Positions 15,746 to 30,989 of a stretch of DNA of 40,645 nucleotides are shown piece after piece; the first letter of the stretch is position 1, and the number at the start of each line of letters is the position of its first letter. The notes under the pieces were generated by a model. It did no database searches. It was not told where the DNA came from and saw only the letters and a list, made by a program, of their open reading frames with translations. The stretch comes from Nitrospirales bacterium. Its GTDB lineage: Bacteria; Nitrospirota; Nitrospiria; Nitrospirales; UBA8639. The position numbers and the translations under genes are program-made. The stretch lies in NCBI GenBank assembly GCA_021604105.1, contig BQIW01000038.1, forward strand, positions 1 through 40,645, in the 5' to 3' direction.

Positions 15746-18286
15746 TTATCCGACAGACTTGGGTTCAGAGGGCACTCCAATCGCCACTAGCCCTGTGCTG
15801 CCCTGAGCCCCATGAGCTATTCGTGTCGCCAGAAGGTGAATTCGGTGAAGGTGCTGCTCGATGATTGCCAGATCGGCAGCCTTGGCCGCGGCTTCCATTT
15901 CAGCTGCCGGCTTATTCAACACATCGAATCCCACAGTGCCACCCGCACCCTTCAGCCAATGAGCCAGCTTGGCAAGGGTTTCCATATCCCGATTCGAATA
16001 GGCGACATCCATCGCCTGCAGTTGTTCACCCAGGCGACCCACAAAACGGGCAATCACATTGGCGAGTTTCGGGTTGGTTGCCCCTAATTTGGAAACAATG
16101 GGTGAGGAATCCTCAATCTGTGAGGCTTGATGGTCCAGGGACTCCTGGAGGACGGATTGCCTGAACGATTCACCGGCTGGTTGACCATGAAGGAACTGAG
16201 CCAATTTTGCGAGGAACCGGTCGAGGTCGATGGGTTTGGTGAGATAGTCGGAAAATCCGGCATCAAATAACTCCTGCTCGAAGCCTTTCATGGCGTTGGC
16301 GGTGAGCGCAATGATGGGGATCTGCAGGCCTTTGTCCCGTAACGAGCGAGTGGCAGTGAGCCCGTCCATCTCGGGCATCTGCATGTCCATGAGAATGATA
16401 TCATATTCCCTGGCCGTAGCCATTTCCACGCCGATCAGACCATTTCCCGCTTCGTCGATGCTCAGACCATAACCCTCCAGGATCACCTTCACGAATTCGC
16501 GGTTTTCCTGGCCATCATCTACGACCAGGATCCTAGCCGATGGAAAGACCCAGTTGGTGTGTTCCTGCGTCATGACCGATTCGTCGATCATTAAGGCCTG
16601 CTCGGGTGTGACCCAGGTCACCTCCCTCGCACTGCCGGCATCCAGTGTGATCTTGAATACGCTTCCAGCTCCAGACTGACTTTCCACCGTAATATCCCCA
16701 CCCAGGGCACGTGCGAACTTGCGGCTGATAGCTAAACCAAGGCCGGTTCCACCGAATTTCCGGGTCACCGACGCATCGGCCTGGACAAAATCTTCAAAAA
16801 TTCGCTGAGTGGCTTCCTCATTCATTCCAATACCGGTGTCGGCGACATCAATATGAAATTGGATCAGGTCTCCGGCCACCTGCTTGGCGTGTGCGGTCAC
16901 CGTGACCGCGCCGCGCTCAGTGAATTTCACCGCGTTCCCCACGAGGTTGGTGATAATCTGGCGGATTCGGCCTGGATCTCCGATAATGGTCTCCGGGACG
17001 TCTTCCGGTACTTTGAGTTCGAGTGCGATGCCTTTTTCGTGAGCCCTCACACCAAGGACTCTGACGACATCCATAATCACGACATAGGGATTGAATCGTA
17101 CCCGTTCGATCTCCAGGCGCCCCGACTCGACCTTCGAGAGATCCAGAATATCGTTAATAAGGTCAAGCAAATGTTTCCCACTGGAATTGATGATCTCGAG
17201 GTGTTTCCGGGTTTCAACCGAGTCACGTCCGTAACCACGTTTAATCAATTCAGTGAAACCCAGGATAGCATTCATCGGCGTGCGGATCTCATGACTCATA
17301 TTGGCCAGGAAGGCGCTCTTGGCCTGATTGGCCGCAACGGCCTCCTCTTTGGACTTCAGTAACTCGATTTCGGCTTCTTCCAATTGCGTGACGTCATCAA
17401 AGCTGACCAGGACACCGACATTTTTGGCTCCACTGCCAAGGATAGGGGAGCAGTTTATCATAAACGTCAGCCGTGTGCCGTCGGGCAGAGTCAATCGGAC
17501 GCGTTCATTCTTTTGAGCCTCTCCCGAATTCAAGGCGATATGCCAGGGGTGTGCCCCCGGTGCCAACGGATGGCCTTCGATGTCCGACCACGGAAACGCT
17601 CCGACCGCCTGGCCCAAGAGCGCCTCAGGTGTCTTGGTTAACAACATGGCGAAGGCTCGATTGGCCAGCATGATCTGCCCTTTGTTGTCGAGCACCAGGA
17701 GCCCTTCTGCCATCGTATCGAGAGCGGATCGCACACGCTCAGGAACAGCCTGGGAGGGATCGAGTTGTTTCAACATTTTTCCTAAATATAGATAAAATCC
17801 GATGAAACACATCAGACCCACAAACAACAGGAATTGTGGTTGAGGGCCGGTGAGAAACCCAAACCAGCTATCGTCACTCAATGGACTGAATCGCAATTCG
17901 ACTTGTCCCCATTTGTCTTCTCCTTCCCAAATTGCGACCGTCACCTGGGTATTGGAAGAATAATCCGAATTGTTGTCCAGCCAATGGTTCTCATGGTCAC
18001 GTATTGTAATAAGCCAATCACCCGCTTCAGTTCGCAATCCGGCTGATAACAGGTCTGGGTTGCGGTCCACGACCAATTGCAAAATCCCCTCCAGGCGGTC
18101 AACGTCGTTCTGGGTTATCAGGATTGTGCCATTGGCGGCAATGGATTCGGCCAAAGCCGCACGTCCCTGGCGAACCGCTCCGTTTCGGTCGGGCATGAAG
18201 CCAAACAAACCTGCCGTCAGTAACACACTGATAAGGAGACTGACTTGGCCGAAGGCCAGACGAGATTTTGTTGAAAGAATGTTCAT
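15746..18286 (-). CDS. Hybrid sensor histidine kinase (PAS-HisKA-HATPase-REC-Hpt)
   Basis: The 846-residue membrane kinase has a first TM segment (about 15-32), a periplasmic domain of roughly 115 residues and a second TM segment (about 152-170). A PAS domain (about 185-300) follows, then HisKA with His332 in SHEIRTPMN, a HATPase domain (NAVKF, DTGIGM, GTGLGLAI), a receiver domain with Asp634 in LMDMQMPEMDG, and a C-terminal Hpt domain with AHWLKGAGG. It is thus a full phosphorelay in one chain. ATG at 18286 overlaps the TGA of the giant surface protein gene (TGATG), so the two are translationally coupled; a GTG one codon earlier is possible. The kinase may sense envelope state linked to the giant protein. 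The Hpt could feed the REC-GGDEF-EAL protein. Both are inference. Confidence 0.93.
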   Translation of the reverse strand: MNILSTKSRLAFGQVSLLISVLLTAGLFGFMPDRNGAVRQGRAALAESIAANGTILITQNDVDRLEGILQLVVDRNPDLLSAGLRTEAGDWLITIRDHENHWLDNNSDYSSNTQVTVAIWEGEDKWGQVELRFSPLSDDSWFGFLTGPQPQFLLFVGLMCFIGFYLYLGKMLKQLDPSQAVPERVRSALDTMAEGLLVLDNKGQIMLANRAFAMLLTKTPEALLGQAVGAFPWSDIEGHPLAPGAHPWHIALNSGEAQKNERVRLTLPDGTRLTFMINCSPILGSGAKNVGVLVSFDDVTQLEEAEIELLKSKEEAVAANQAKSAFLANMSHEIRTPMNAILGFTELIKRGYGRDSVETRKHLEIINSSGKHLLDLINDILDLSKVESGRLEIERVRFNPYVVIMDVVRVLGVRAHEKGIALELKVPEDVPETIIGDPGRIRQIITNLVGNAVKFTERGAVTVTAHAKQVAGDLIQFHIDVADTGIGMNEEATQRIFEDFVQADASVTRKFGGTGLGLAISRKFARALGGDITVESQSGAGSVFKITLDAGSAREVTWVTPEQALMIDESVMTQEHTNWVFPSARILVVDDGQENREFVKVILEGYGLSIDEAGNGLIGVEMATAREYDIILMDMQMPEMDGLTATRSLRDKGLQIPIIALTANAMKGFEQELFDAGFSDYLTKPIDLDRFLAKLAQFLHGQPAGESFRQSVLQESLDHQASQIEDSSPIVSKLGATNPKLANVIARFVGRLGEQLQAMDVAYSNRDMETLAKLAHWLKGAGGTVGFDVLNKPAAEMEAAAKAADLAIIEQHLHRIHLLATRIAHGAQGSTGLVAIGVPSEPKSVG

Positions 18287-21200
18287 CACTTATGCCAATG
18301 AAACCACCTGGCTCGAGCAGTCTTAGCGGGATTCCCGGTCTTTCCCTCAGCTATCTCGGATGCAGTGGATTTCTCAAATAATAATTCAACCGAATCGCCT
18401 TCCACACTGTTCTGCCCCTTTTGTCCTTTCTTTTTCGTTGCCGAATCGAGCACTAATAGCGGATTCACAAACTGCCAGGCCGGTACCGATGAGAGCAATG
18501 CCGTCAATAGCACCCCACTGCGCAGGAGCCAGACGACATAGCCGATCGACAGCCCGGAGGATACGGCAATGCTGGATGCCAAAAAGGTGTGCTGGGTGGC
18601 AGCGACCTCCTGAACATCCTCGCGGAGGCGATCCAAGTCCTGAAGGAACCCCGATCGGTGCAGTAATGATCGGATTTCATCTTTGAACGTCGTGAGTTCA
18701 ATAGGCTTCCTGAGCAAACTCCATATGTCACTCACCATCTCCACGAGGCCCGTGCGTTCTTCATCCTCCTGCTTAGCCGGCAATTCATGTCGTCCCAGCG
18801 TATTATCCGTCTCCGAATTTTTGGCGCCAGTGATTGTGGAGTCCTGGCCGCCGTCAGGGATATTCCATGGCAAGCCGGGATCAAGACTGCCCCCATTGCC
18901 CGGCGCCTGGTCCTCTGAAGTCTCTTCGCCGGTATCTCTCGGGGGGGGATCGGTTGAAGGCGCAGAGTCCGGTGGCGGGGGAATAAAAATTTGGGGCGGA
19001 ACATTGGCTTGGGTCACCGTGACGGCGATTGCCTGCGTATCGACGGATGTGCCATCGGAGGCCTGGACGATCACGTCATAGATATTATCGGCCCCGACAT
19101 CGCCCGGTGTCTGATATTCCGGAGCGGTGATGAATGTAAGAGCCCCGGTCGCGGGATCGATAGTAAATAACGCCGCATCGACACCGCCTACAATGCTGTA
19201 GGTCAGGGAATTGCCCTCCGCATCCGTGGCATTCACATCAGTCACGGCCGTGGTGCCGGTGGTAACAGAAATATTGGCGGTGGCACTGCCTCCATCTGAG
19301 GTGATGACGGGGGCATCGTTGACCGGGGTCACGGTCAAGTCCACCCTGATGGTATTCGATGTGGCACCGGAGAGATCCCGGATCGTATAGGTGAAACTTT
19401 CGGAGAGAGTTTCCGAACCACTATGGGTATAATCCACCGTCCCATCGGGATTAATGCTTGTAATGGTGCCATTGGTGGGGCCGGAGACAATGGTGATGCC
19501 GGTCAGATCCAATCCGTCATCGGGATCGCTGTCATTGTTGGATAGATTCAGCCGGGTGGTCGCCCCTTCATTGACGGTAAAGTTGTCGGCCACCGCTATG
19601 GGCGAATCGTTGACCGGGGTCACGGTCAAGTCCACTCTGATGATATTCGATGTGGCACCGGAGAGATCCCGGATCGTATAGGTGAAACTATCGGAGAGGG
19701 TTTCGGAGCCATTATGAGTATAGTCCACCGTCCCATCGGGATTAATGCTCGCAATGGTGCCATTGATGGGGCCGGAGACAATCGTGAGGCTGGTCAGATC
19801 CAATCCGTCATCGGGATCGCTATCATTGTTGGAAAGGTTCAGCTGGGTGGTCGACCCTTCATTGACAATAAATCCGTCCCCCACGGTTATCGGAGGATCA
19901 TTGACGGGATTGACGTTAATGGTCGTGCGGGCGGCCGAACTGTCTGCCGTGCCGTCGTTGACATACACGTCGATTAATCGGTCGCCATCGCTGGGAGCGT
20001 TCGTATCCGTGTGTTGGTACTGAAACGCCTTGATCAACGTTTTCGTCTCGACCTCTGTAAACGTCCCGCCGCCTTGTTTGGTAATCGTGACCGTGGCTGT
20101 TCCTGCCCCGGTGGCGAGCATCACATGATAGTTTCCGCCGGTGGTGTCCTGTCCGGCCACGGCGGTTCCTAGGGTAAAGGTATTGCCGTCGAGCACGAGT
20201 GTCTCAGCATTGCCGTCCAGCAGACCGCTCACGCCCAGTTTCACATAGGCGAAGGTGGTGCTATCCGGATCCAACAGATCCGTGTCACTATCGGCGATGC
20301 CCATCGGCCCGGCACCTTCAGTGAATGTGGCGTCATAGTCGTTGCCTGTGGCGCCGGAACTGTCGTTGGCATCGAGGTCCACGGTCGGCGGGTCATTGAC
20401 GGGAGTAACGATGATAGTAGCCGTATCCATGTGGGTAAGGGATCCACCACCTGTGTTGCCCAAATCATCGACACTCAGGGTCAGCAGATCCGACGCGTCA
20501 AAGTCTGTGTTTGTTTGGTACATGAGGGTGGCCAACGCATTATTGAGATTTGTCGTAGTGCCGGTAACAGTCATTGTTGCACTGTCGTTTGCTCCGCCGG
20601 CGAAGGTCAGGCCGGTTGTGGTCACCAATCGCAAAATACCGTCATTCACCGACAGGCTGACCGAAATGATATTCACTCCGGCATCACTGTCCGAAACGCT
20701 GACTCCGCCTAAGGGTCTGAACCCATCATCTTCATTCACCCCGTAGGAAACCGGACTAATTGTGGCAGTCGGCTGGTCATTGACAGGATCCACGTTGATC
20801 GTCGTGCGGGCTGCCGCACTGTCCGTGGTGCCGTCATTGACTCGTACCTCGATCAGCCGGTCACCATCAGAAGGAGCGCCCGTATCCGTGTGCTGGTATT
20901 GAATGGCCTTGATCAGCGTTTCCGCCTCGGCTTCGCTAAAGGTGGCCCCGCTCTGTTTGACGATCGTCATGATGGCTGTGTCTGCGGCCGTAGACACTCG
21001 CACATGGTAGTTGCCGCCGCTGGTGTCCTGACCGGGCGCATCGGTGGCCAGCGCAAAGGTATCCCCGTCGAGGATCAAGACTTCCGCATCGCCATCCAGG
21101 AGGCCACTGACTGACAAGGTCACATACGCAAACGTGGTGCTGTCCACATCCGCCAGATCTGTATCGGCGTCCGCAATTGCGGTGGGTCCGTCACCTTCGG

Positions 21201-24048
21201 TAAAGGTGAAAGCATAATCATTGTCCGAAGCTCCACTGCTGTTATTCACATCAAGGTCCAACGTTGGGGCGGCCGTACTCCCGTATTGGCGGGCAAAGAT
21301 ATCAGTTTGTGCGCCGTCGCTGCCGGTCCATACGGCCACGAAGTTATCCCGGTCCAGCATGGCCACCGAGGCACGGTCCTGAGTGTTGGCGGTGGTTTGA
21401 TTAATCAAAAACTCGAGACCGATTTTTTGACCACTGGAGTTGAATTTCTGGCCAAAGACCCCGGCGGTGTCATTCTGCCCAGGCCGATTTCCCGCCCCCT
21501 CCCATACAACGATGAACTCACCGATATCATCCATGGTGATAGAGGGATTAGTCTGAGTGGTCAAGAGACCTGAGGTATTGGCAATTTTGGGGAGAAAGAG
21601 CGCATTTCCTGCTGCGTCGAATTGCCTGACATAGACTTCCACATCAAGGACTGTAGCGCGATAGGCCACGGTAAACCGCCCATCGCTGCTCATATCCACT
21701 GCAGCGGCACCGGCACTGAGCTGTAGGAGCACGTCAACCTGACCGCTATTCTGTGAAACCCCTCCGCTATTGTAGAGCTGAAAGAAGACGTCCGAACCGT
21801 TATCCCAGACGACCACAAATCCGCCAGAATCCGCAATCCCTACCGATGGATCCTTCGCAGCCGCTGCGGTGTTGACGGTGATGTCACTGCCGGTCAACCC
21901 TCCGCCCATGCTGCCGCGTCGTACAAAAATTCCTTCGTTGCCCCCGCCGTCGCCTTCCCATGCGATCACGAAATCACCGGCGCCATTCATGTTCACGGAT
22001 GGATTGTGCTGAGTGTTAGACGTGCCGGTGTTGACGATCAGGTCTCCAGCATCGACGGCTGTGCCGTTGGCGAGAAATCTTCGCATGAAAATATCCCCGC
22101 CTTGGGTCCAGGTGACGAGAAAATTTCCGCTGTCGTCGACGGCGACATCGGTCCACGCGTTTGTTCCGCCGCCGATGTTGACTTGAAATTGAGCGACCTT
22201 CTGATTGCCACTGGCGTCCAACACTTTGGCGAACACTTTGTCGTTGGACGTGCCGTTCGTCCATACCACCACGTAGTCTCCGTTCGGCCCGATATCGACT
22301 GCCCGTTCGGCTCCTCGCAACGGGCCGCTGGTCTGCTCATTATTTCCTGAGGGATCATTGACCGTGAATTCATTTTTCGAGACAAAGGCGGAAGACTTAT
22401 ATTCGTAGGCGCCGATGTCCGGCGCCGCATCACGCGTGATGCCGCGCTGATCAACTGCAGGCGCACCGCTTGTTGTCCCTGCGTTGAGGGCGGGGCTGGC
22501 CGCCAGCAGCGCATGTGTGTTCGTGGGGCCGCCGTTGTTGGCGAGGACATCAAGATTGGCGCTCATGCCGGTAATGTCGCTGCCAACAAAACCGGTCGCT
22601 CCGCCTACCACTTCGAGCAGGTTGTACCCACTGCTGCTGAAACTGCCCAGGACATCATCATTGGCGGTAGCCGCCGTATTACCGCTCACAATCGTGTTGG
22701 AAATTTGAACGAGGGTGCCGTTGGAATAAATGCCACCGGCGTCATTGGCATTGTTGAGCGTGAAGGTGGAATTGATCACGGTGATCGGTGTATCCGTCCA
22801 GATCCCGCCCCCTTTATTGACGGCGGTGTTGCCGCTGAACGTCACATTGGTCAGGGTGCCCCCGTTAGCAGCGTGAAAATGAATCCCGGCGCCCTCATCC
22901 GCCAGATTATTGGCAATGAGGACCCGGTTGAGATTCAGCGTTCCGTGTACGTGAAAGGCGCCGCCGTCGCCGCCAGTGCTGTTGTTATTGGACACTGTGG
23001 CATCGCTGAGATTGAGGATGCTGTTACCGTTGACATATACCCCGGCCCCATTACTGATTTCACGTCCGTTTTGAATGGTCAGCCCGCTCATCGTGACCGT
23101 AATGCTGCCTTGGGTTTCAAAAATCCGTTCATTCGCGTTGCCATCGATGATGGTGGTGTCGGCACCGTCACCGGTGACGATCACATTGTCAGTAATATCC
23201 AGTTTTCCTGTGGTCAAGACATACGTGCCGGTTGGAATGATGATCGTGTCGGTTCCGGGTGCGGCATTGGCGTCGATAATAGCCTGACGAAGTGACCCTG
23301 CTCCGGCGTCATTCGTATTGGTGACGGTAAAGGTCGCGAGGACACCCTCCCAGGCTTCTTGGGTGGCTTCGCCGATGACGATTGACGTTTCAATGAACCC
23401 GGTTGCCACTTCCAATTCCCAGTTGGCATATTCGCTAACGTGCCCGGTCCGGTCCGTGCTCGCGGCAATATCAGCCCCTGTCAGTTCGGCTAGGGTTTGG
23501 ATTGCAGAGAAGCCGGGCTGACCGTGTCCAAAGGTACAGCCATAGATCAACAGATCGGCATCGGCAGACAAGCTCTGCCCGATCTGAGTCAACAGCGCCG
23601 CATAGTGATTGCTCATCGAATTATTGTTGAGAAAGGCCGTGCCTAAATGCAGTTCCGCTTCGGTGCCTTCTCCAATTAGATGAATGGCATCGATATTACT
23701 TCGGCCCTTGAGCGCTTCAGCAATTTCTTCGATCCCGTCTCTCCCTGCATCAAGAAGAATGACTTCGGCGGCAGGATGAATTCCTTCCATAAGGGTTTGG
23801 TAATCCTCAACCCGGGTATCGATAAAGACTATTTCCCGACGATCAGTTGGAGTAGCCGGGGAGAAAGCGAAGGGACGGGAGTTGACACCGTCAATGCCCA
23901 TTGTTTCACCGGAGTTCGTGTCTGCCTCAACATCGGTTTCCGAGACAGTTTGAACTTGGGCAATCTGGTCCTGCACCACTTCTGCCCCGGTGGCGAGGGC
24001 TGCCCCATCAAATAAGATCCTTGGTTCAAGAGCCAATAGTGTTTTCAT
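18286..24048 (-). CDS. Giant LEPR/DUF4347 surface-type repeat protein, 1920 aa
   Basis: The N-terminus carries the LEPRILFDGAA signature (residues 7-17) found on very large repeat proteins. A DUF4347 domain follows (about 71-230; IHLIGEG and IYGCTFG). Then come a right-handed beta-helix region (about 240-555, beginning TVTNTNDAGAGSLRQAI) and a propeller-like repeat region (about 555-930, VVW and SVAMLDRDNFVAVW repeats). A tandem array of Cadherin/Big-type domains ending PVNDxP (about 930-1690) is last among the extracellular parts. A Pro- and Asp-rich spacer and a charged coiled segment lead to two closely spaced hydrophobic segments (about 1823-1866) and a basic tail ending WFHWHK. There is no classical Sec signal peptide. 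The start ATG overlaps the stop of a 58-codon ORF, and the stop overlaps the kinase start. It is likely exported and anchored by the facing TolC-HlyD-M50 operon, acting in adhesion or biofilm (inference). Confidence 0.88.
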   Translation of the reverse strand: MKTLLALEPRILFDGAALATGAEVVQDQIAQVQTVSETDVEADTNSGETMGIDGVNSRPFAFSPATPTDRREIVFIDTRVEDYQTLMEGIHPAAEVILLDAGRDGIEEIAEALKGRSNIDAIHLIGEGTEAELHLGTAFLNNNSMSNHYAALLTQIGQSLSADADLLIYGCTFGHGQPGFSAIQTLAELTGADIAASTDRTGHVSEYANWELEVATGFIETSIVIGEATQEAWEGVLATFTVTNTNDAGAGSLRQAIIDANAAPGTDTIIIPTGTYVLTTGKLDITDNVIVTGDGADTTIIDGNANERIFETQGSITVTMSGLTIQNGREISNGAGVYVNGNSILNLSDATVSNNNSTGGDGGAFHVHGTLNLNRVLIANNLADEGAGIHFHAANGGTLTNVTFSGNTAVNKGGGIWTDTPITVINSTFTLNNANDAGGIYSNGTLVQISNTIVSGNTAATANDDVLGSFSSSGYNLLEVVGGATGFVGSDITGMSANLDVLANNGGPTNTHALLAASPALNAGTTSGAPAVDQRGITRDAAPDIGAYEYKSSAFVSKNEFTVNDPSGNNEQTSGPLRGAERAVDIGPNGDYVVVWTNGTSNDKVFAKVLDASGNQKVAQFQVNIGGGTNAWTDVAVDDSGNFLVTWTQGGDIFMRRFLANGTAVDAGDLIVNTGTSNTQHNPSVNMNGAGDFVIAWEGDGGGNEGIFVRRGSMGGGLTGSDITVNTAAAAKDPSVGIADSGGFVVVWDNGSDVFFQLYNSGGVSQNSGQVDVLLQLSAGAAAVDMSSDGRFTVAYRATVLDVEVYVRQFDAAGNALFLPKIANTSGLLTTQTNPSITMDDIGEFIVVWEGAGNRPGQNDTAGVFGQKFNSSGQKIGLEFLINQTTANTQDRASVAMLDRDNFVAVWTGSDGAQTDIFARQYGSTAAPTLDLDVNNSSGASDNDYAFTFTEGDGPTAIADADTDLADVDSTTFAYVTLSVSGLLDGDAEVLILDGDTFALATDAPGQDTSGGNYHVRVSTAADTAIMTIVKQSGATFSEAEAETLIKAIQYQHTDTGAPSDGDRLIEVRVNDGTTDSAAARTTINVDPVNDQPTATISPVSYGVNEDDGFRPLGGVSVSDSDAGVNIISVSLSVNDGILRLVTTTGLTFAGGANDSATMTVTGTTTNLNNALATLMYQTNTDFDASDLLTLSVDDLGNTGGGSLTHMDTATIIVTPVNDPPTVDLDANDSSGATGNDYDATFTEGAGPMGIADSDTDLLDPDSTTFAYVKLGVSGLLDGNAETLVLDGNTFTLGTAVAGQDTTGGNYHVMLATGAGTATVTITKQGGGTFTEVETKTLIKAFQYQHTDTNAPSDGDRLIDVYVNDGTADSSAARTTINVNPVNDPPITVGDGFIVNEGSTTQLNLSNNDSDPDDGLDLTSLTIVSGPINGTIASINPDGTVDYTHNGSETLSDSFTYTIRDLSGATSNIIRVDLTVTPVNDSPIAVADNFTVNEGATTRLNLSNNDSDPDDGLDLTGITIVSGPTNGTITSINPDGTVDYTHSGSETLSESFTYTIRDLSGATSNTIRVDLTVTPVNDAPVITSDGGSATANISVTTGTTAVTDVNATDAEGNSLTYSIVGGVDAALFTIDPATGALTFITAPEYQTPGDVGADNIYDVIVQASDGTSVDTQAIAVTVTQANVPPQIFIPPPPDSAPSTDPPPRDTGEETSEDQAPGNGGSLDPGLPWNIPDGGQDSTITGAKNSETDNTLGRHELPAKQEDEERTGLVEMVSDIWSLLRKPIELTTFKDEIRSLLHRSGFLQDLDRLREDVQEVAATQHTFLASSIAVSSGLSIGYVVWLLRSGVLLTALLSSVPAWQFVNPLLVLDSATKKKGQKGQNSVEGDSVELLFEKSTASEIAEGKTGNPAKTARARWFHWHK
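19321..19902 (-). repeat. Two near-identical tandem 291-bp repeats inside the giant gene
   Basis: Two units of exactly 291 bp (97 codons; 19321-19611 and 19612-19902) encode Big/cadherin-like domains that share long identical stretches (NNDSDPDDGLDLT, SINPDGTVDYTH, TYTIRDLSGATSN). Near-identity at DNA level points to recent duplication or ongoing gene conversion and makes copy-number change by recombination likely. Confidence 0.9.
19890..20387 (-). repeat. Long repeat copy B in the giant gene (about 165 codons)
   Basis: This unit begins VDLDANDSSGATGNDYDATF and ends at a PVNDPP boundary. It is related to copy A at 20772-21264, with shared blocks such as DSTTFAYV, VSGLLDGNAE, GQDTTGGNYHV, FQYQHTDT and APSDGDRLI. 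A different domain of about 125 codons separates the copies. Limits are approximate. Confidence 0.8.
20772..21264 (-). repeat. Long repeat copy A in the giant gene (about 164 codons)
   Basis: This is the N-terminal copy of the same domain, beginning LDLDVNNSSGASDNDYAF and ending PVNDQP. It is more diverged from copy B than the 97-codon units are from each other, so this duplication is older. Limits are approximate. Confidence 0.8.
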
Positions 24049-24221
24049 TTCATAGCGATCCCTGGTGCCGGTGAATGTTTGCCCGGACCTTTCTTCGTGC
24101 TGGTATTCCCTGATTGAGCTGATTCATCTGATATCACGCACCTATCCTTATGACGTGATTCTTCGTGTTGAGTTTCTCCTGTGGCCATAAATTCAACGGA
24201 AATTTCATGGTATTTTTGCAT
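24045..24221 (-). CDS. Small ORF (58 aa) translationally coupled to the giant protein gene
   Basis: ATG at 24221 is preceded by AAAGGG at 8-base spacing. The frame runs 58 codons to a TGA at 24045-24047 that overlaps the ATG of the giant gene in the classical ATGA arrangement. The product begins MQKYHEISVEFMATGE and is hydrophilic, rich in Ser, His, Lys and Glu, with one Cys and a Gly/Pro-rich end; no membrane segment or family is recognised. It could be a genuine small protein acting with the giant protein, or a leader peptide whose translation opens the giant gene's start site. The start overlap and ribosome binding site are direct evidence; the role is not known. Confidence 0.55.
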   Translation of the reverse strand: MQKYHEISVEFMATGETQHEESRHKDRCVISDESAQSGNTSTKKGPGKHSPAPGIAMK

Positions 24222-24836
24222 CGTGTTTTCCCTTTAGGCACATGCTTACGGCATGAGAAACCTCCATCTCCTTATTCGGCTATTGGCTTCATTTACTGGA
24301 AGCAATAAGGAAAATTTTCCCATCAAGTAATATTGTTGTTGGGGTTGAGATTGAATTAGGGAACCTGGGTGTGCAATTGAGAGAACCGATTCGGGGCATT
24401 GATTCCGAAAAATCAGACGGATTCTGGTTCATGAGGAAAGTGGACCCAAGATTTGATGGAAAAAAGAGGTGAAATTGAAAACTAAATTGGGGGGTATTCT
24501 GATTCAACCGACGAGGTCACATGCAGTTGTGAGGAATTGATGAAGATTGTTTCATGACTGGACAGAAATCACATTATTGAGAACGGTTTACTATATTAAT
24601 CTTGCCAGGGGAAAGTCCGAGAAACAGAATTGGAAAGCTGCAAAGACGTCGTTCTGGTTTCTATTGTGAACCAACATGGTCTTAGGGCTCGGGAGAATTG
24701 CCAGACCAGATTTGCGGAGGATTTGAGGTGCCGACCAGTGCCGTCTTTTGGTTGGTGACTATCCGCAGGCATGTTCGGGTGGGCATGAGACCGGTGTACA
24801 CGTACATTGACCGACTGGATGGTTAATTCTGTTTCG
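24222..24836. promoter_or_regulatory. Divergent control region between the giant-protein and exporter operons
   Basis: No protein gene is supported here. Three structures are visible: a hairpin CATGC-TTACG-GCATG (24241-24255) just upstream of the small ORF's ribosome binding site; a perfect 12-bp palindrome GGAAAATTTTCC (24309-24320), a possible operator; and a stem formed by GAAACAGAA (24621-24629) with TTCTGGTTTC (24652-24661) in the leader of the TolC-like gene. Both operons must be transcribed from within this stretch, but no strong -35/-10 pair stands out. Confidence 0.45.
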
Positions 24837-26513
24837 ATGCCATTACCTATTAAAAAATTACTGGTTGGGTTGGTGGTGATGGGATTGGTCCTGATTGACT
24901 CCGGCTGTGCCGTCATGCCCACTCCACTCAGTCAGGACGAAATTCAACAACGGGTCCAAGAAGATTTGGCTCAACTCACGCAATATCAGGAACCGGTGGC
25001 TCGTCCCATTACGCTCTTTGAGGCGATGGCGCGGGCGTTGAAATATAATTTGGAAACGCGGGTGCAGGGATTAAAGGAAATGGTCACGCATCGCCAATTG
25101 GATCTGGCGCATTACGATATGCTGCCGAAAGTGGTGGCTGATGCGGCCTATAATGGGCGCAGCAACTTTGCGGGAGCGAGCAGCCGGTCGTTAGAAACAG
25201 GCCAACAATCCCTCGTGTCCTCCACGTCTTCTGAGAAGAATATTTACACGGCCAATTTAGCCCTAAGCTGGGATGTGCTGGATTTCGGGCTGTCCTATGT
25301 CCGCGCGGAGCAAGCGGCTAACGACGTGCTCATTGCCGAAGAAGATAAACGTCGCATTGCCAATCGCGTTATTCAGGATGTCCGTTCAGCCTTTTGGAAG
25401 GCCGTGGGAGCGGAACGGGCGTTGGGACGTCTGGCGTTTCTTCAGGATTGGGTGACGCAAGCGCTGGGTGAGGTCCATCTGATTCGGGAGCGGGGATTGG
25501 CGGATCCACTCACTTCACTACAATATGAACGGGAACTCCTGAGCGCGCAACGGGAAATTCAACAACTGTATCAGGAATTATCCCTATCCAGAATTCACCT
25601 CGCCGAGCTTATGAACCTGGATCCCGGTGAACCCTATGAATTGGCGGTGCCGGAACATCCGCCCCTCGTGTCGAAGGTCTCTGAGAAGCTGGAAGATTTG
25701 GAATTCCGGGCACTCATGAATCGTCCGGAACTGCGAAAGGTCGACTACCAAAAACGCATTAACGCCAAAGAAACCAAAGCCGCCATCCTGGAATTGCTTC
25801 CCAATCTTAATGTGTATATGGGGGGCAATTACGATAGCAACAATTTTCTGTTTCATAATAATTGGCTGAATTACGGAGCCAAAGTTAGTTGGAATCTATT
25901 GAATGTGTTCCGGCATCCCGTCCGCTTGCAGGTCATTGACGCCCAGGAAAAGGTGTTAGACATGCAAAGCCTGGCGTTGACGATGGCACTGATGAGTCAG
26001 GTCCATGTGTCGGTGGCGCAATATCATGCGGCCATGAAGGATGTGGCCACGGGGAAGCGCTATCTCGAGACTCAAATGGCCATTGCCGATCAGGTTCAAC
26101 GTGCCTGGTCCCTGAACCGGCTCAGTGAGCATCTGGTCATCCGGGAAAAAATGCAAGGGCTTGTAGCCGAATTACGGTATGAATCCTCACTAGCCAAATT
26201 GGAAATGGCCTATGCCAATGTGTTAGCCGCGATTGGAGAAGACCCCTTCCCCACGGACATCACTGGAGACGGTGTCGAAGAATTGGCCGTAGCCTTGCAA
26301 GAGCGTTGGGAATGGCTTGAACGCCCCGAGGTCTTCGCGCAGGTTCATCCAACTGACGCTCAAACTCAATCGCCAACAACTCAATCCCAAGGGGCCGAGT
26401 CTCAACCCCAGGATACTGTCCGGGAATCCCAAGAGGCTGTCGGGCAATTCGAAGAAGCTGGCGCACAACCCCAAGAGACAACTACTCAAACCCAAGAGAG
26501 AGCTAATCCATGA
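24837..26513 (+). CDS. TolC-like outer-membrane efflux/secretion lipoprotein
   Basis: ATG at 24837 gives a compact lipoprotein signal peptide (MPLPIKKLLVGLVVMGLVL, then IDSGC with the acylated Cys at residue 24); in-frame starts at 24807 (TTG) and 24819 are possible. The 558-residue protein has the duplicated outer-membrane efflux (OEP) pattern. The first repeat starts TLFEAMARALKYNLE and includes the long helical segments around ALSWDVLDFGLSYVRA; the second includes ELLPNLNVYMGGNYDSN and VSWNLLNVF. It should form the trimeric beta-barrel and periplasmic tunnel of a tripartite exporter. The C-terminal 60 residues are an unusual Gln/Thr/Glu-rich tail with repeated SQ, TQ and PQ pairs. The stop overlaps the HlyD gene start (ATGA). 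Confidence 0.9.
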   Translation: MPLPIKKLLVGLVVMGLVLIDSGCAVMPTPLSQDEIQQRVQEDLAQLTQYQEPVARPITLFEAMARALKYNLETRVQGLKEMVTHRQLDLAHYDMLPKVVADAAYNGRSNFAGASSRSLETGQQSLVSSTSSEKNIYTANLALSWDVLDFGLSYVRAEQAANDVLIAEEDKRRIANRVIQDVRSAFWKAVGAERALGRLAFLQDWVTQALGEVHLIRERGLADPLTSLQYERELLSAQREIQQLYQELSLSRIHLAELMNLDPGEPYELAVPEHPPLVSKVSEKLEDLEFRALMNRPELRKVDYQKRINAKETKAAILELLPNLNVYMGGNYDSNNFLFHNNWLNYGAKVSWNLLNVFRHPVRLQVIDAQEKVLDMQSLALTMALMSQVHVSVAQYHAAMKDVATGKRYLETQMAIADQVQRAWSLNRLSEHLVIREKMQGLVAELRYESSLAKLEMAYANVLAAIGEDPFPTDITGDGVEELAVALQERWEWLERPEVFAQVHPTDAQTQSPTTQSQGAESQPQDTVRESQEAVGQFEEAGAQPQETTTQTQERANP

Positions 26514-27367
26514 TACATCGACACTCTAGCACTATTCTGTGTTTCGTTCTGAGTTTGATCCTGCTGCCTTCAGGCCTCAGTCTGGCAAAAGGCGTGGGAC
26601 GCAGCAGTGTGCCCTCATCGGATCTTCAAACAATTCGGGGCATTGTGAAGCCGGTCGTTGAAGCAGTGCTGGCCAGTGAAATCCAGGCGTTAGTGAAGCG
26701 GATGCCGTTTCGAGACGGGGATGCATTTAAAAAGGGAGACCTCCTGGTTGAATTTGAATGTGCCAAATACCGCGCGGAATTGTCAGCTGCTCAAGCTGAT
26801 TTGGAAGCGCGGCAAAAAACCGTCATCAATAACGAAGAGCTTGCCGCGCTCCACGGGATTGGCCGTTTGGAGGTGGACATTTCTCAGGCCGAATTAAAAA
26901 AGGCTCAGGCGGTTCTCAAGCGAGCACAAGTGATGGTCCAAGGCTGCCGGATTGCTGCCCCTTTTGCCGGACAGGTTGTGAAGACCTTGGTGCATCCCTA
27001 TGAAAGCGTGAATCCGTATGATGATCTGGTGAGTATTGTCAGTAACCAGGATCTGGATATCGAATTGATTCTCCCGTCCACCTCCCTACGGTGGATCACC
27101 AAGAACCAGGCATTTGTATTTAGCCTCGATGAGACTCAAGAGGCCTATCCGGCGGAAGTGGTGGAAATTGGGGCTCGTGTGGATCCCGTGAGTCAAACCA
27201 TTCGGGTCTTCGGCCGGTTCCACAAACATCCCGCGGGTGTCCTCGCCGGCATGAGTGGAAGTGCCAAATTTCCGGAAGGCACATTTCCCACCCAATCAAC
27301 CGTCAAGCAAAAGACGAAACCTTCAGCCTCACCGGCCTCCTCGATAAATCAGACGGTCAAACACTAA
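26510..27367 (+). CDS. HlyD-like periplasmic adaptor protein
   Basis: The 285-residue protein starts within the end of the TolC-like gene (4-base overlap). It has an N-terminal signal sequence (about 8-27), the first half of a biotinyl-lipoyl domain (ALVKRMPFRDGDAFKKGDLL) and a short helical hairpin (about 85-145, AELKKAQAVLKRAQVM). The second lipoyl half (CRIAAPFAGQVVKTLVHPYESV) and a beta-barrel domain ending near GMSGSAKF follow. The C-terminal tail is Ser/Thr/Pro/Lys-rich. Adaptors of this type bridge the inner-membrane part and the TolC tunnel. It seems to lack a TM anchor beyond the signal peptide, so it is probably a soluble or signal-anchored periplasmic subunit. Confidence 0.88.
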   Translation: MIHRHSSTILCFVLSLILLPSGLSLAKGVGRSSVPSSDLQTIRGIVKPVVEAVLASEIQALVKRMPFRDGDAFKKGDLLVEFECAKYRAELSAAQADLEARQKTVINNEELAALHGIGRLEVDISQAELKKAQAVLKRAQVMVQGCRIAAPFAGQVVKTLVHPYESVNPYDDLVSIVSNQDLDIELILPSTSLRWITKNQAFVFSLDETQEAYPAEVVEIGARVDPVSQTIRVFGRFHKHPAGVLAGMSGSAKFPEGTFPTQSTVKQKTKPSASPASSINQTVKH

Positions 27368-27417: not shown

Positions 27418-28860
27418 GTGCAGACAGAAATCCCGACCGAATCCTCTTCGCAAGTGCGGGGGAATGAATTCAGGTCCTTCTCCGGTCAGCCCGGCGGACC
27501 TTCCATCGTTCTCAAGGGCAAATCCGAACATGATTCAAGTATTTTCCTTGCTCTCCTCCAGATGGAAAGTCAGGTTCGTAAGGCGCAAACGGTCAAAGAA
27601 CTTTGTTTTCTTCTAGTCAATGAGGCTCGTCGTCTCGTTGACTTTCGACAGGGGTGTATTCTTTCCATCACGCCGAAAAGACGAGTGCGGGGCAGAGTGG
27701 AAGCGGTGTCCAGCGTGGCCGTGGTTAACCGCAATGCACCGATGATCAACTGGGTTGAACATGTCATTTCGGAATTATGGGATCACGGCAGCCTCCGGAC
27801 TGCCGGTACTCTGTCGGCAACAAATTGTTCCACAGATCTTCAGCGTGATTGGAAGTCTTTCGCGTTTCCTCATGTCTTGTGGTGTCCATTGATTACTACG
27901 GATCAGCAGGTGATTGGCGGCCTATGGTTGACCAGGGAGATACCCTGGCAAGATGGGGAAATGGAATTGATGCGGCGGTTTGCCGAAACGGTGGCTCATG
28001 CCTGGCAGGCGCTCGAAGGCACAAAACGGAAAGTGAAAAACTGGAAGGTTCTCCAGCACTGGATATGGGGAGTTCTTGTCGTGATGATGGCTGCCATGTG
28101 GCTGCCCGTACGGTTGTCTACGCTGGCTCCGGTTGAAGTGATCCCGCGGGATCCATCGGTGGTAACGGCACCACTGGATGGGGTGCTTGGAGAAATCCTT
28201 GTCAACCCGAATACTCTTGTTCGAAAAGGGCAAACGCTCTTTCGCTATGAGGACACCACGTTCCGGAATCAATTTGAAGTGGCGGAAAAGAATCTGTCTG
28301 TGACCTGGATGGAGTATCGCAAAGTGTCGCAGGGGGCATTTGTCGACCATGAGACCGGTGCGGGTATGCCTGTGCAGGCCTCAGAAGTCCGGCTCAAAGA
28401 AGCTGAACGGGATTACGCCTGGGACATGTTACAGCAAGTAGAGGTAAACGCTTCCCGAGGGGGCATTGTGATTTTTACGGATAAATCCGAATGGATCGGC
28501 AAGCCGGTGCTGGTGGGCGAACGTATTATGGAAGTGGCCGATCCTCGGGAATTTGAATTGAAAATCGATCTACCGGTGGAAGACGCTATCGTGTTACGGG
28601 AAGGCGCTGAGATTGAGGTGTTTTTGAATGCCAATCCTTTACGAGCCATTCCTGCTCAATTAACACATGCCAGTTATCATGCGAGTATTCTCCCGACCAA
28701 TGTCCTGGCCTATCGGGTGGAAGCCGAGTTCACGGATCCCCCTGAGGATATTCGAATCGGTTGGCAAGGCACCGCCAAAATCTATGGAGAACCGGTCACC
28801 CTCTTTTTCTATCTCTTTCGGCGACCACTCGGAGTCCTTCGACAAACGGTCGGTTTCTAA
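27418..28860 (+). CDS. GAF-TM-HlyD fusion protein (membrane adaptor)
   Basis: A GTG start at 27418 follows AAAGGAGG at a rather long 12-base spacing. The 480-residue product has a cytoplasmic GAF-like domain (about 45-200; it includes LLVNEARRLVDFRQGCIL, WCPLITTDQQVIGGLWL and FAETVAHAWQAL). One TM helix (about 214-232) follows, then a periplasmic HlyD region with lipoyl halves around APLDGVLGEILVNPNTLVRKG and GGIVIFTDKSEWIGKPV, and a barrel domain. This couples a small-molecule or regulatory GAF domain inside the cell to the exporter outside. The stop overlaps the next start (TAATG). Similar GAF-HlyD proteins usually sit beside M50-HlyD genes; the mechanism is unknown to me. Confidence 0.85.
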   Translation: MQTEIPTESSSQVRGNEFRSFSGQPGGPSIVLKGKSEHDSSIFLALLQMESQVRKAQTVKELCFLLVNEARRLVDFRQGCILSITPKRRVRGRVEAVSSVAVVNRNAPMINWVEHVISELWDHGSLRTAGTLSATNCSTDLQRDWKSFAFPHVLWCPLITTDQQVIGGLWLTREIPWQDGEMELMRRFAETVAHAWQALEGTKRKVKNWKVLQHWIWGVLVVMMAAMWLPVRLSTLAPVEVIPRDPSVVTAPLDGVLGEILVNPNTLVRKGQTLFRYEDTTFRNQFEVAEKNLSVTWMEYRKVSQGAFVDHETGAGMPVQASEVRLKEAERDYAWDMLQQVEVNASRGGIVIFTDKSEWIGKPVLVGERIMEVADPREFELKIDLPVEDAIVLREGAEIEVFLNANPLRAIPAQLTHASYHASILPTNVLAYRVEAEFTDPPEDIRIGWQGTAKIYGEPVTLFFYLFRRPLGVLRQTVGF

Positions 28861-30989
28861 TGGGTCAGCCAAAGCCTCAAGAAAACTTTCCCCTTCCACC
28901 GTTGCGGGATGATCTTCAGATCCTGTCCGGTACTCCGACGCCTGATGGCGTCCCCACGTGGACGATCGTGGACATGGTTCGAAATCAATTTTTCCAAATT
29001 GAATGGTCCGCGTTCCAACTGCTTTCACATTGGGAAGCGGGAACTGTCGGGGGCTTGGTGGATCTGGTTACCCGAACCACCACGGCCACGGTCTCAACCG
29101 GTGAAGTGATGGAGTTGGTCCAGTTTCTCTATCGGAATAATTTAACACGGGATTCGTTAGTCGGTGGAAGTCAGGGGTTCTTAGGGCAGGCCGAAGAGGC
29201 GAAACAACATTTTCTGCTGAGAGTGCTCCACAACTATTTATTTTTCAGAATTCCCTTATGCAATCCGGACCGGTTCTTACGAACAACGCTTCCATTCGTC
29301 ACTCCGCTGTTTAGTGGATGGGCCTTATGTTGTGTGGTCATCCTGGGAGTGATCGGGTGTATGGGAGTCGTTCGGCAGTGGGAATCGTTTGCCAATGTCT
29401 TTTTGTATTTTTTTACGTTTCAAGGGATGACCGGTTATATCATCGGGTTGGTGGCCATTAAGATATTGCATGAACTTGGGCATGCCTATACCGCCGTTCG
29501 ATACGGGTGCCGGGTACCCACGATGGGCCTCGGGTTCCTCATTATGGTGCCTGTCCTCTATACCGACACGACCGATTCCTGGCGGCTCACCGTCCGGAAG
29601 CAACGTGCGGCCATTGCTGCTGCGGGAATGGTAGTTGAGCTCAGTGTGGCGATGCTCGCGACCTTTTTTTGGAACTTCTGGCCTGATGGTATTGTTAAAA
29701 GCATGCTTTTTGTGTTGGCGACCACCAGTTGGGTGACCGGGCTGCTGATCAATTTGAATCCGCTGCTCCGGTTTGACGGGTACTACGTCTTGTCCGATTG
29801 GCTGGGTGTCCCGAACTTACAATCACGGGCCTTCGGGTTTGGCCGGTGGAAATTACGGGAATGGTTATTTGCCTGGGGAGATGCTCCTCCGGAACACATG
29901 CCTCCGCACCGGCAAACTGTGTTGATCCTCTATGCGTGGGCGGTGTGGGTTTACCGGGCCGTCGTGTTTTTAGGAATTGCTGTCCTGGTATATTACTTTT
30001 TTTTTAAGGTTCTGGGCGTCATCCTCTTTTTCGTGGAAGTAGGCTGGTTTCTGGCATGGCCGGTCTATGAGGAACTGCAGGTCTGGTGGATCCGTCGGGC
30101 GGCTGTGACCAAATCCTGGCGAGGGCGGGGCGTCGGCGTCTTGCTGATGGGGTGTCTGCTGATGAGTATGATGCCCTTGGATACGACGGTAGAGGTTCCG
30201 GCGATAATTGAGGCTCCGGAACGCACGACATTGTACCCTTCGGTTTCAGCAATGGTGGTGGAGGTGTTGGTTGATGAGGGTGACCGGGTTGAACAAGGCC
30301 AGACGCTTTTGATTTTACAGTCGCCACAGGTCAATCATCAGATTGACATGGTCGGGCATCGCATTGCGGCGCTAGAGTTTCGCATGGGACGAGAAATCGC
30401 TTTTCAGGATGATCGGGATGATCATCTGGTGATTCGAGAGACGCTGGAGAGGGAACAAAAGGCACTGTCGGGCCTGCTTACACTCCGAGATCAATTGACC
30501 CTGCATGCTCCGTTCTCCGGAGTGGTCACTGATCTGGCGTCTTCACTTCATCCAGGGCTGTGGGTCAATAGCGATATGGCGATGGGCCAGGTGATTGGTG
30601 AACATCCATCCGTAATGCTGGCCCTGGCCACGGAAAAAGAAAAGACCCGGCTCTCGGTGGGAAATGAAGGATGGTTTTATCCGGACGACCCCACCCGGCC
30701 TCCCAGACAGGGGCGGCTTAGGGACCTTCGTCATGTGGACGAATCGGAAATGGCATTACCGTACTTAGCCTCCACCTATTCCGGAGGCGTTCCCGTGCGC
30801 CAGGATGCGCAGGGCAGATTGATTCCCGAGCATTCCGTATACCGGGTGGAACTGGATGTGACGGACAAGGATCCATCCTGGAATCAGGTGGTGCGAGGGG
30901 TGGTCCATGTGAAGGGCAGTGGCCAAAGTGTGATGGGGCATCTTTGGGCACGTGTGGCTTCCATTCTCATTCGGGAAACCGGAGCCTAA
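28860..30989 (+). CDS. Polytopic M50 (site-2-protease-like) metallopeptidase fused to a HlyD-like domain
   Basis: The real start is the ATG at 28860, overlapping the upstream stop; a longer in-frame extension to 28761 overlaps the previous gene and is rejected. The 709-residue protein has a soluble N-terminal part (about 1-130) that resembles a PqqD-like winged-helix domain (QFFQIEWSAFQLLSHWE). A membrane M50 core follows, with the zinc motif HELGH (204-208) and the second motif NPLLRFDGYY (300-309) with the third metal ligand Asp. More TM helices reach about residue 440, and a C-terminal periplasmic HlyD/lipoyl domain (about 445-700) follows. All metal-binding residues are kept, so it could cleave substrates in the membrane. 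In this operon it stands where an ABC or RND transporter would be expected. Confidence 0.9.
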   Translation: MGQPKPQENFPLPPLRDDLQILSGTPTPDGVPTWTIVDMVRNQFFQIEWSAFQLLSHWEAGTVGGLVDLVTRTTTATVSTGEVMELVQFLYRNNLTRDSLVGGSQGFLGQAEEAKQHFLLRVLHNYLFFRIPLCNPDRFLRTTLPFVTPLFSGWALCCVVILGVIGCMGVVRQWESFANVFLYFFTFQGMTGYIIGLVAIKILHELGHAYTAVRYGCRVPTMGLGFLIMVPVLYTDTTDSWRLTVRKQRAAIAAAGMVVELSVAMLATFFWNFWPDGIVKSMLFVLATTSWVTGLLINLNPLLRFDGYYVLSDWLGVPNLQSRAFGFGRWKLREWLFAWGDAPPEHMPPHRQTVLILYAWAVWVYRAVVFLGIAVLVYYFFFKVLGVILFFVEVGWFLAWPVYEELQVWWIRRAAVTKSWRGRGVGVLLMGCLLMSMMPLDTTVEVPAIIEAPERTTLYPSVSAMVVEVLVDEGDRVEQGQTLLILQSPQVNHQIDMVGHRIAALEFRMGREIAFQDDRDDHLVIRETLEREQKALSGLLTLRDQLTLHAPFSGVVTDLASSLHPGLWVNSDMAMGQVIGEHPSVMLALATEKEKTRLSVGNEGWFYPDDPTRPPRQGRLRDLRHVDESEMALPYLASTYSGGVPVRQDAQGRLIPEHSVYRVELDVTDKDPSWNQVVRGVVHVKGSGQSVMGHLWARVASILIRETGA

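Follow-up and report, generated by a model that had tools for sequence, protein, structure and literature searches.

A predicted RRE-M50-HlyD fusion protein in a conserved TolC-associated gene module next to LEPR-tagged giant proteins

The fusion protein and its locus

Contig BQIW01000038.1 of a Nitrospirales bacterium (assembly GCA_021604105.1; 40,645 nucleotides, referred to as the window in the following) encodes a protein in which a PqqD-like N-terminal domain, an M50 metalloprotease core and a HlyD-type adaptor region are combined in one chain (Table 1). Genes for a TolC-like protein, a periplasmic adaptor (membrane fusion protein, MFP) and a GAF-HlyD protein are located upstream on the same strand, and the genes for a giant repeat protein and a histidine kinase are oriented divergently. 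The three-part composition of the fusion protein had been proposed in an earlier reading of the window that was made from the sequence only, and it was confirmed by Pfam searches, by a family profile and by the predicted fold of the N-terminus.

Table 1. Features of the window discussed in the text (TM, transmembrane)
Feature	Coordinates	Strand	Remarks
Membrane sensor hybrid histidine kinase	15746..18289	-	Overlaps the stop codon of the giant gene by 4 bp
Giant LEPR/DUF4347/choice-of-anchor Q/cadherin-like/tandem-95 protein	18286..24048	-	1920 aa; proposed substrate
C-terminal TM hairpin of the giant	18478..18588	-	Residues 1821-1857; precedes PAWxxVNPLLVL and a charged tail
DUF4347, caspase-like fold	23338..23832	-	Cys kept, catalytic His replaced by Glu
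LEPRILFDGAA motif	23998..24030	-	Residues 7-17 of the giant; proposed export leader for the RRE
TolC-like outer membrane factor, probable lipoprotein	24807..26513	+	Pfam OEP, 4.7e-28
RND-type periplasmic adaptor (MFP)	26510..27367	+	TIGR01730, 112 bits (cut-off 94.9)
GAF domain, one TM helix and HlyD adaptor	27418..28860	+	Pfam GAF and HlyD_3; TM about 211-239; conserved partner
RRE(PqqD-like)-M50-HlyD fusion protein	28860..30989	+	709 aa; proposed inner-membrane component
PqqD-like / RiPP recognition element domain	28860..29159	+	Residues 1-100; fold resolved for 11-98
M50 membrane core	29277..30059	+	About residues 140-400; PF02163 and NF041824 matches, hydropathy
HELGH zinc motif	29469..29483	+	Residues 204-208
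NPLLRFDGYY, third ligand Asp306	29757..29786	+	Residues 300-309
HlyD/biotin-lipoyl adaptor region	30177..30959	+	Residues 440-700; Pfam

The ATG start codon of the fusion gene at 28860 shares one base with the upstream stop codon (TAATG). A longer version starting with TTG at 28761 is unlikely, because related proteins align from residue 1. Hydropathy analysis indicates about seven TM helices. This odd number would fit a topology in which the PqqD-like N-terminus lies in the cytosol and the HlyD end in the periplasm. HlyD_D23 and Biotin_lipoyl_2 match residues 440-603, both below their Pfam cut-offs. Close copies of the protein (77-87% identical) in named records come from Nitrospirota metagenome-assembled genomes. 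One record named after a different organism (Marine bacterium B5-7, our locus L065) contains a 93% identical protease copy together with a LEPR giant, possibly due to a binning mix-up.

Peptidase_M50 (PF02163) matches residues 193-270 with 33.0 bits (cut-off 27.2). In an alignment of 78 homologues, taken from whole genomes and covering both clades of the family (see below), H204, E205, H208 and D306 are invariant in all 78 sequences, down to about 25% identity, and the zinc site is therefore under selection rather than preserved by chance. The retention of the HELGH and NPLLRFDGYY motifs, already seen in the window sequence by itself, extends to the zinc residues of all 78 homologues. The best NCBIfam model is that of the daptide intramembrane metalloprotease (NF041824; residues 105-394, 141.8 bits with a cut-off of 300), and the model of the YydH/LiaK epipeptide protease (NF058609) gives a weak match. 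With M50/S2P proteases, the daptide protease MpaP and YydH/LiaK, the protein shares a multi-TM core, the HExxH and NPxxRFDGY motifs and a sequence relationship over residues 105-394. It differs from MpaP, YydH and LiaK in that it stays under the NCBIfam cut-offs, carries two additional fused domains and is part of a putative exporter module without enzymes for ribosomally synthesized and post-translationally modified peptides (RiPPs).

The N-terminal domain is less easily recognized by sequence searches. The Pfam PqqD model (PF05402) has no match in the window protein, nor in a direct search of its genome, but it exceeds the cut-off in two proteins of the sister clade and matches 18 of 48 homologous N-termini at E-values up to 1. 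A profile of these 48 N-termini retrieved five PDB sequences at E-values up to 10, among them three RiPP recognition elements (RREs), namely TbiB1 (E = 0.0017), TfuB1 (0.15) and PqqD (0.27). With an alignment of homologues from genome loci as input, AlphaFold2 models residues 11-90 with pLDDT (predicted local distance difference test) values of 83-89, and the predicted topology, strand-strand-strand-helix-helix-helix, corresponds to the winged-helix order of RREs. When the model was compared with known structures by VIA-align, RREs filled the top ranks: TfuB1 with bound leader came first (Z 10.2, 82 residues aligned, 2.8 Å), followed by TbiB1 with leader (Z 9.8) and PqqD (Z 8.3). CteB (7.4), GdmN (7.3), ThcOx and LynD ranked below PqqD, and PaaA, McbB and SuiB lower. 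Foldseek returned nothing better than 1e-3, its best hits being TbiB1 (7e-3) and then CteB. Taken from the family profile, the sister clade and the predicted fold together, the assignment of the N-terminus to the RRE fold is well supported as a model. The sequence-only reading had called this region PqqD-like and suggested a comparison with PqqD-like folds; the structure prediction did not yield an unrelated fold, and residues 11-98 are predicted to be closest to TfuB1, TbiB1 and PqqD. Predicted fold and sister-clade matches above the Pfam cut-off place the domain with PqqD and the other RREs, whereas its fusion to a membrane protease and an adaptor sets it apart, as would its proposed ligand, the leader of a giant protein instead of that of a modified peptide.

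A conserved module and its LEPR-tagged giants

In a comparison that was based on about a hundred relatives, genes for a giant protein, TolC, MFP, GAF-HlyD and M50-HlyD were found together in near-constant order in Nitrospirota and in alpha-, beta- and gamma-Proteobacteria. The order giant-TolC-MFP-HlyD-M50-HlyD is present in Azospirillum, Variovorax, Burkholderia, Niveispirillum, Kosakonia, Citrobacter and E. coli, and the Nitrospirota modules consist of the same genes with the giant on either side. A tblastn search of plasmids with the M50-HlyD protein gave 52 records in which the match covered 80% or more of the query, with 32-42% identity. The form of the module seen in E. coli occurs in 24 of 5426 genomes of this species and is mostly plasmid-borne. 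No ATP-binding cassette (ABC) exporter of a type I secretion system (T1SS) and no SecA-like ATPase were found in the module, neither in 51 stretches with a total of 1.16 Mb nor in the window; the ABC genes that were seen in these stretches belong to a distinct T1SS in Phyllobacterium, located a few kb from the module genes, and to a remote locus in L067. The annotated modules also contain no RND (resistance-nodulation-division) or MFS (major facilitator superfamily) pump, and a RiPP-modifying enzyme was found neither in the window nor in the modules of the relatives. The system thus resembles type I secretion (ABC-HlyD-TolC, including the secretion of giant adhesins) in having HlyD-type adaptors and a TolC-family channel beside a giant repeat protein. 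It differs in that the ABC ATPase is missing, the inner-membrane part is the RRE-M50-HlyD protein and the conserved candidate signal is N-terminal.

The giants start with the motif LE(P/S/Q/A)Rx(L/M)FD(G/A)A, followed by a disordered stretch and DUF4347; two betaproteobacterial giants have the variant LEPRxxYDA. Of 295 Nitrospirota genomes, 43 contain both a protease of this clade and DUF4347 and 248 contain neither, with one genome having only the protease and three only DUF4347 (Fisher 6e-47, a value that ignores relatedness). For the 58 nearer relatives, both were found in 20, the protease alone in two fragmented assemblies and DUF4347 alone once. The motif itself was back-translated and searched in the DNA of 14 genomes, using reversed patterns as controls. 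Of the 21 matches, 20 mark the N-terminus of a giant encoded no more than about 16 kb from the module, and the remaining one lies in antisense orientation inside another gene. The reversed controls gave no match, and neither did three genomes without the module of this clade. Three DUF4347 proteins are encoded at a distance from modules, two of these in module-less genomes. All three lack the LEPR motif, and one starts with a Sec-type signal peptide, which was not found before the LEPR motif in the giants. Because lone DUF4347 proteins are without the motif and motif-bearing giants are found beside the module, it is the motif and not DUF4347 that the exporter follows, and this is strong, if indirect, support for the LEPR segment as a candidate ligand of the RRE.

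The sequence-only reading had named two possible leaders, the LEPR segment and a 58-residue open reading frame (24045-24221). Judged by sequence, the former appears to be the better candidate, as it tracks the exporter across genomes. The latter was rejected as leader or product: it has no Pfam or NCBIfam match, similar frames are confined to close relatives within the genus, where they drift in frame, and no gene of this type was found in the other modules compared.

A sister group of the M50-HlyD proteins is monophyletic with a support of 1.0. Here, the RRE-M50-HlyD gene adjoins giants that begin with EPIEPRILLSADP or DPMEPRVLLSADP, an 'EPR-x-LLSA' type of tag, and are annotated as LEPR-XLL (NF012209). 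As with LEPR-XLL, the giants of the window's clade bear a short motif of the LEPR type at the N-terminus, but it reads LEPRx(L/M)FD(G/A)A, precedes DUF4347 and remains under the cut-off of the model. In addition to the protease and the giant, the sister-clade module comprises DUF3467, GAF-HlyD, MFP, TolC and, in most cases, a SecA paralogue of about 650 aa (SecA_DEAD, 1e-85 to 1e-97). A SecA paralogue beside the PqqD-M50-HlyD gene, usually together with DUF3467, was observed at loci L116, L117, L118, L082-L084, L154 and L155. Both systems are present in some Nitrospirota genomes. When a second SecA was sought in the genome of the window, only one was found. The SecA of the sister clade is the best hint as to an energy source; the window's clade probably borrows the housekeeping SecA or another source.

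DUF4347 (PF14252) of the giant is recognized with 172 bits (cut-off 24.6), and its model is closest to Tce1 (PDB 9qpe, Z 12.8), followed by SAVED-CHAT, Craspase, caspases and legumain. Tce1 corresponds to PA0256, a protein with DUF4347 (PMC8262886), and its His/Cys pair consists of His186 and Cys240 (PMC13323088). Of 70 DUF4347 copies, 48 retain the pair. While the Cys is nearly invariant, Glu stands at the position of the catalytic His in 21 copies including that of the window, which is thus devoid of the catalytic dyad. Tce1 and the giant have the domain and the caspase-like cysteine protease fold in common, but Tce1, with its His, is a cargo of the type VI secretion system, whereas the copy in the window, with Glu at this position, is part of a giant surface-type protein.

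Many of the Nitrospirota giants end in a TM hairpin, PAWxx(F/V)(D/N)P and a charged tail, and these proteins may span the envelope with their C-terminus held in the inner membrane. The proteobacterial giants have no hairpin; in four of them (L106, L113, L112 and L108) a loose C-terminal pattern, P-x-(S/F)-(F/L)-xx-Q-(L/V/I/F), is shared.

Proposed export mechanism and alternatives

From the computed conservation of module and active site, the RRE fold and the association of motif and module, we infer the direction of export, the binding of LEPR by the RRE and the cleavage of the leader. That the module exports the giant is very likely. The M50-HlyD protein is probably the inner-membrane core of a dedicated TolC-dependent exporter for giants. 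The cytosolic PqqD-like domain would capture the giant by its leader, LEPRxxFDGA, which is short and disordered, and the M50 core with its intact zinc site would trim or release this leader at the membrane by cutting near LEPR. The HlyD end of the protein, the GAF-HlyD protein and the MFP would form the connection to the TolC-like channel as the route by which the giant would leave the cell. Of the individual steps, the reading of LEPR by the RRE is likely, and for cutting of the leader by the M50 core we lean slightly towards acceptance.

Several observations weigh against this proposal. Genome G209 has the module, but no DUF4347. In Phyllobacterium, GAF-HlyD and M50-HlyD genes occur without adjacent TolC and MFP genes, and the neighbouring protein is of a non-LEPR type. 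The four-gene module of Magnetospirillum has an ELWxxDGT protein upstream, in which the LEPR motif was not found. The LEPR segment of the window scores 13.7 bits, with a cut-off of 17 for LEPR-XLL. No energy source was found in the window's clade; the 51 stretches contain no module ATPase. Furthermore, M50 relatives in RiPP clusters could keep their active sites for other reasons.

The absence of an ATPase is one of the points in favour of a different route, in which the giant crosses the inner membrane via SecYEG and the housekeeping SecA, the module only guides it outward from the periplasm, and LEPR is an unusual Sec-targeting or retention tag. The single SecA gene of the window's genome and the SecA paralogue of the sister clade would fit such a route. 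However, no Sec-type signal peptide precedes LEPR, a DUF4347 protein without the module does possess one, and the apparently cytosolic location of the RRE end fits recognition before translocation. We therefore regard the SecYEG route as unlikely. It is also rather improbable that exporter and LEPR tag function as proposed while the M50 core cuts a different membrane-embedded target, for instance a stalled chain, one of the adaptors or the C-terminal hairpin of the giant, and DUF4347 processes the N-terminus. The hairpins of the Nitrospirota giants and the cysteine-protease fold of DUF4347, with its His/Cys pair in most copies, speak for this possibility. Yet the M50 site is still kept in Proteobacteria, where the giants have no hairpin, and since the His is Glu in the window and in 20 of the 69 other copies, self-processing by DUF4347 is not a general step of leader removal.

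Two further explanations treat the giant as an unrelated or chance neighbour. The nearest named families of the fusion protein are daptide and epipeptide leader peptidases and RREs, as would be expected if RRE and M50 core matured a small modified peptide such as the product of the 58-residue frame. Given that this frame is not conserved beyond close relatives, that RiPP-modifying enzymes are missing from the window and from the modules of the relatives and that the giant is the constant partner, a RiPP-type system is extremely improbable. Hardly more can be said for an ordinary efflux pump for small molecules that has no pump subunit of its own: TolC and MFP do resemble parts of RND efflux systems, but no ABC exporter belongs to the module in the 51 stretches, the annotated modules lack RND or MFS pumps, and their association with LEPR giants is near-perfect.

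Relation to known secretion systems and further observations

A published description of the module was not found; most subscription papers and preprints were outside the search, and this is hence weak evidence of absence. The parts belong to known families, and their combination, the substrate tag and the spread are undescribed in the literature searched; we rate the system as a variant of TolC-dependent secretion. Tentatively, it might be regarded as a distinct secretion class, in which an RRE-containing intramembrane protease takes the place of the ABC exporter, reads and cuts the LEPR leader and uses a HlyD/TolC conduit, with one clade having its own SecA paralogue and the other depending on host energy, and with a distribution from Nitrospirota to E. 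coli plasmids. We consider this possible, but short of probable. If true, it would be a secretion route that unites recognition, leader removal and adaptor in one membrane protein, and leader recognition of the RiPP type would extend to giant surface proteins. The LEPR-XLL motif, for which we found no published function but only passing mentions, would gain one, and the export of giants without Sec signal peptide in many Nitrospirota and Proteobacteria would be explained.

The TolC-like protein of the window has a lipobox-like IDSGC at its start and an acidic, Gln/Thr-rich C-terminal tail. Hybrid histidine kinases are recurrent neighbours of the giants in Nitrospirota only. Many Nitrospirota giants are followed by a gene for the same membrane sensor region, composed of TM, periplasmic part, TM and PAS, but with varying outputs, which are a hybrid kinase in the window and a diguanylate cyclase-like domain (GGEEF) or a simple kinase in L067, L070, L091, L097 and L103. 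The giant may report to this co-translated sensor. Tail-collar ('tail fiber') genes adjoin several of the proteobacterial modules (L108:22128-24235, L107:12-1871, L120:18707-20799 and L112:3466-4080), and in Kosakonia three such genes follow the M50 gene.

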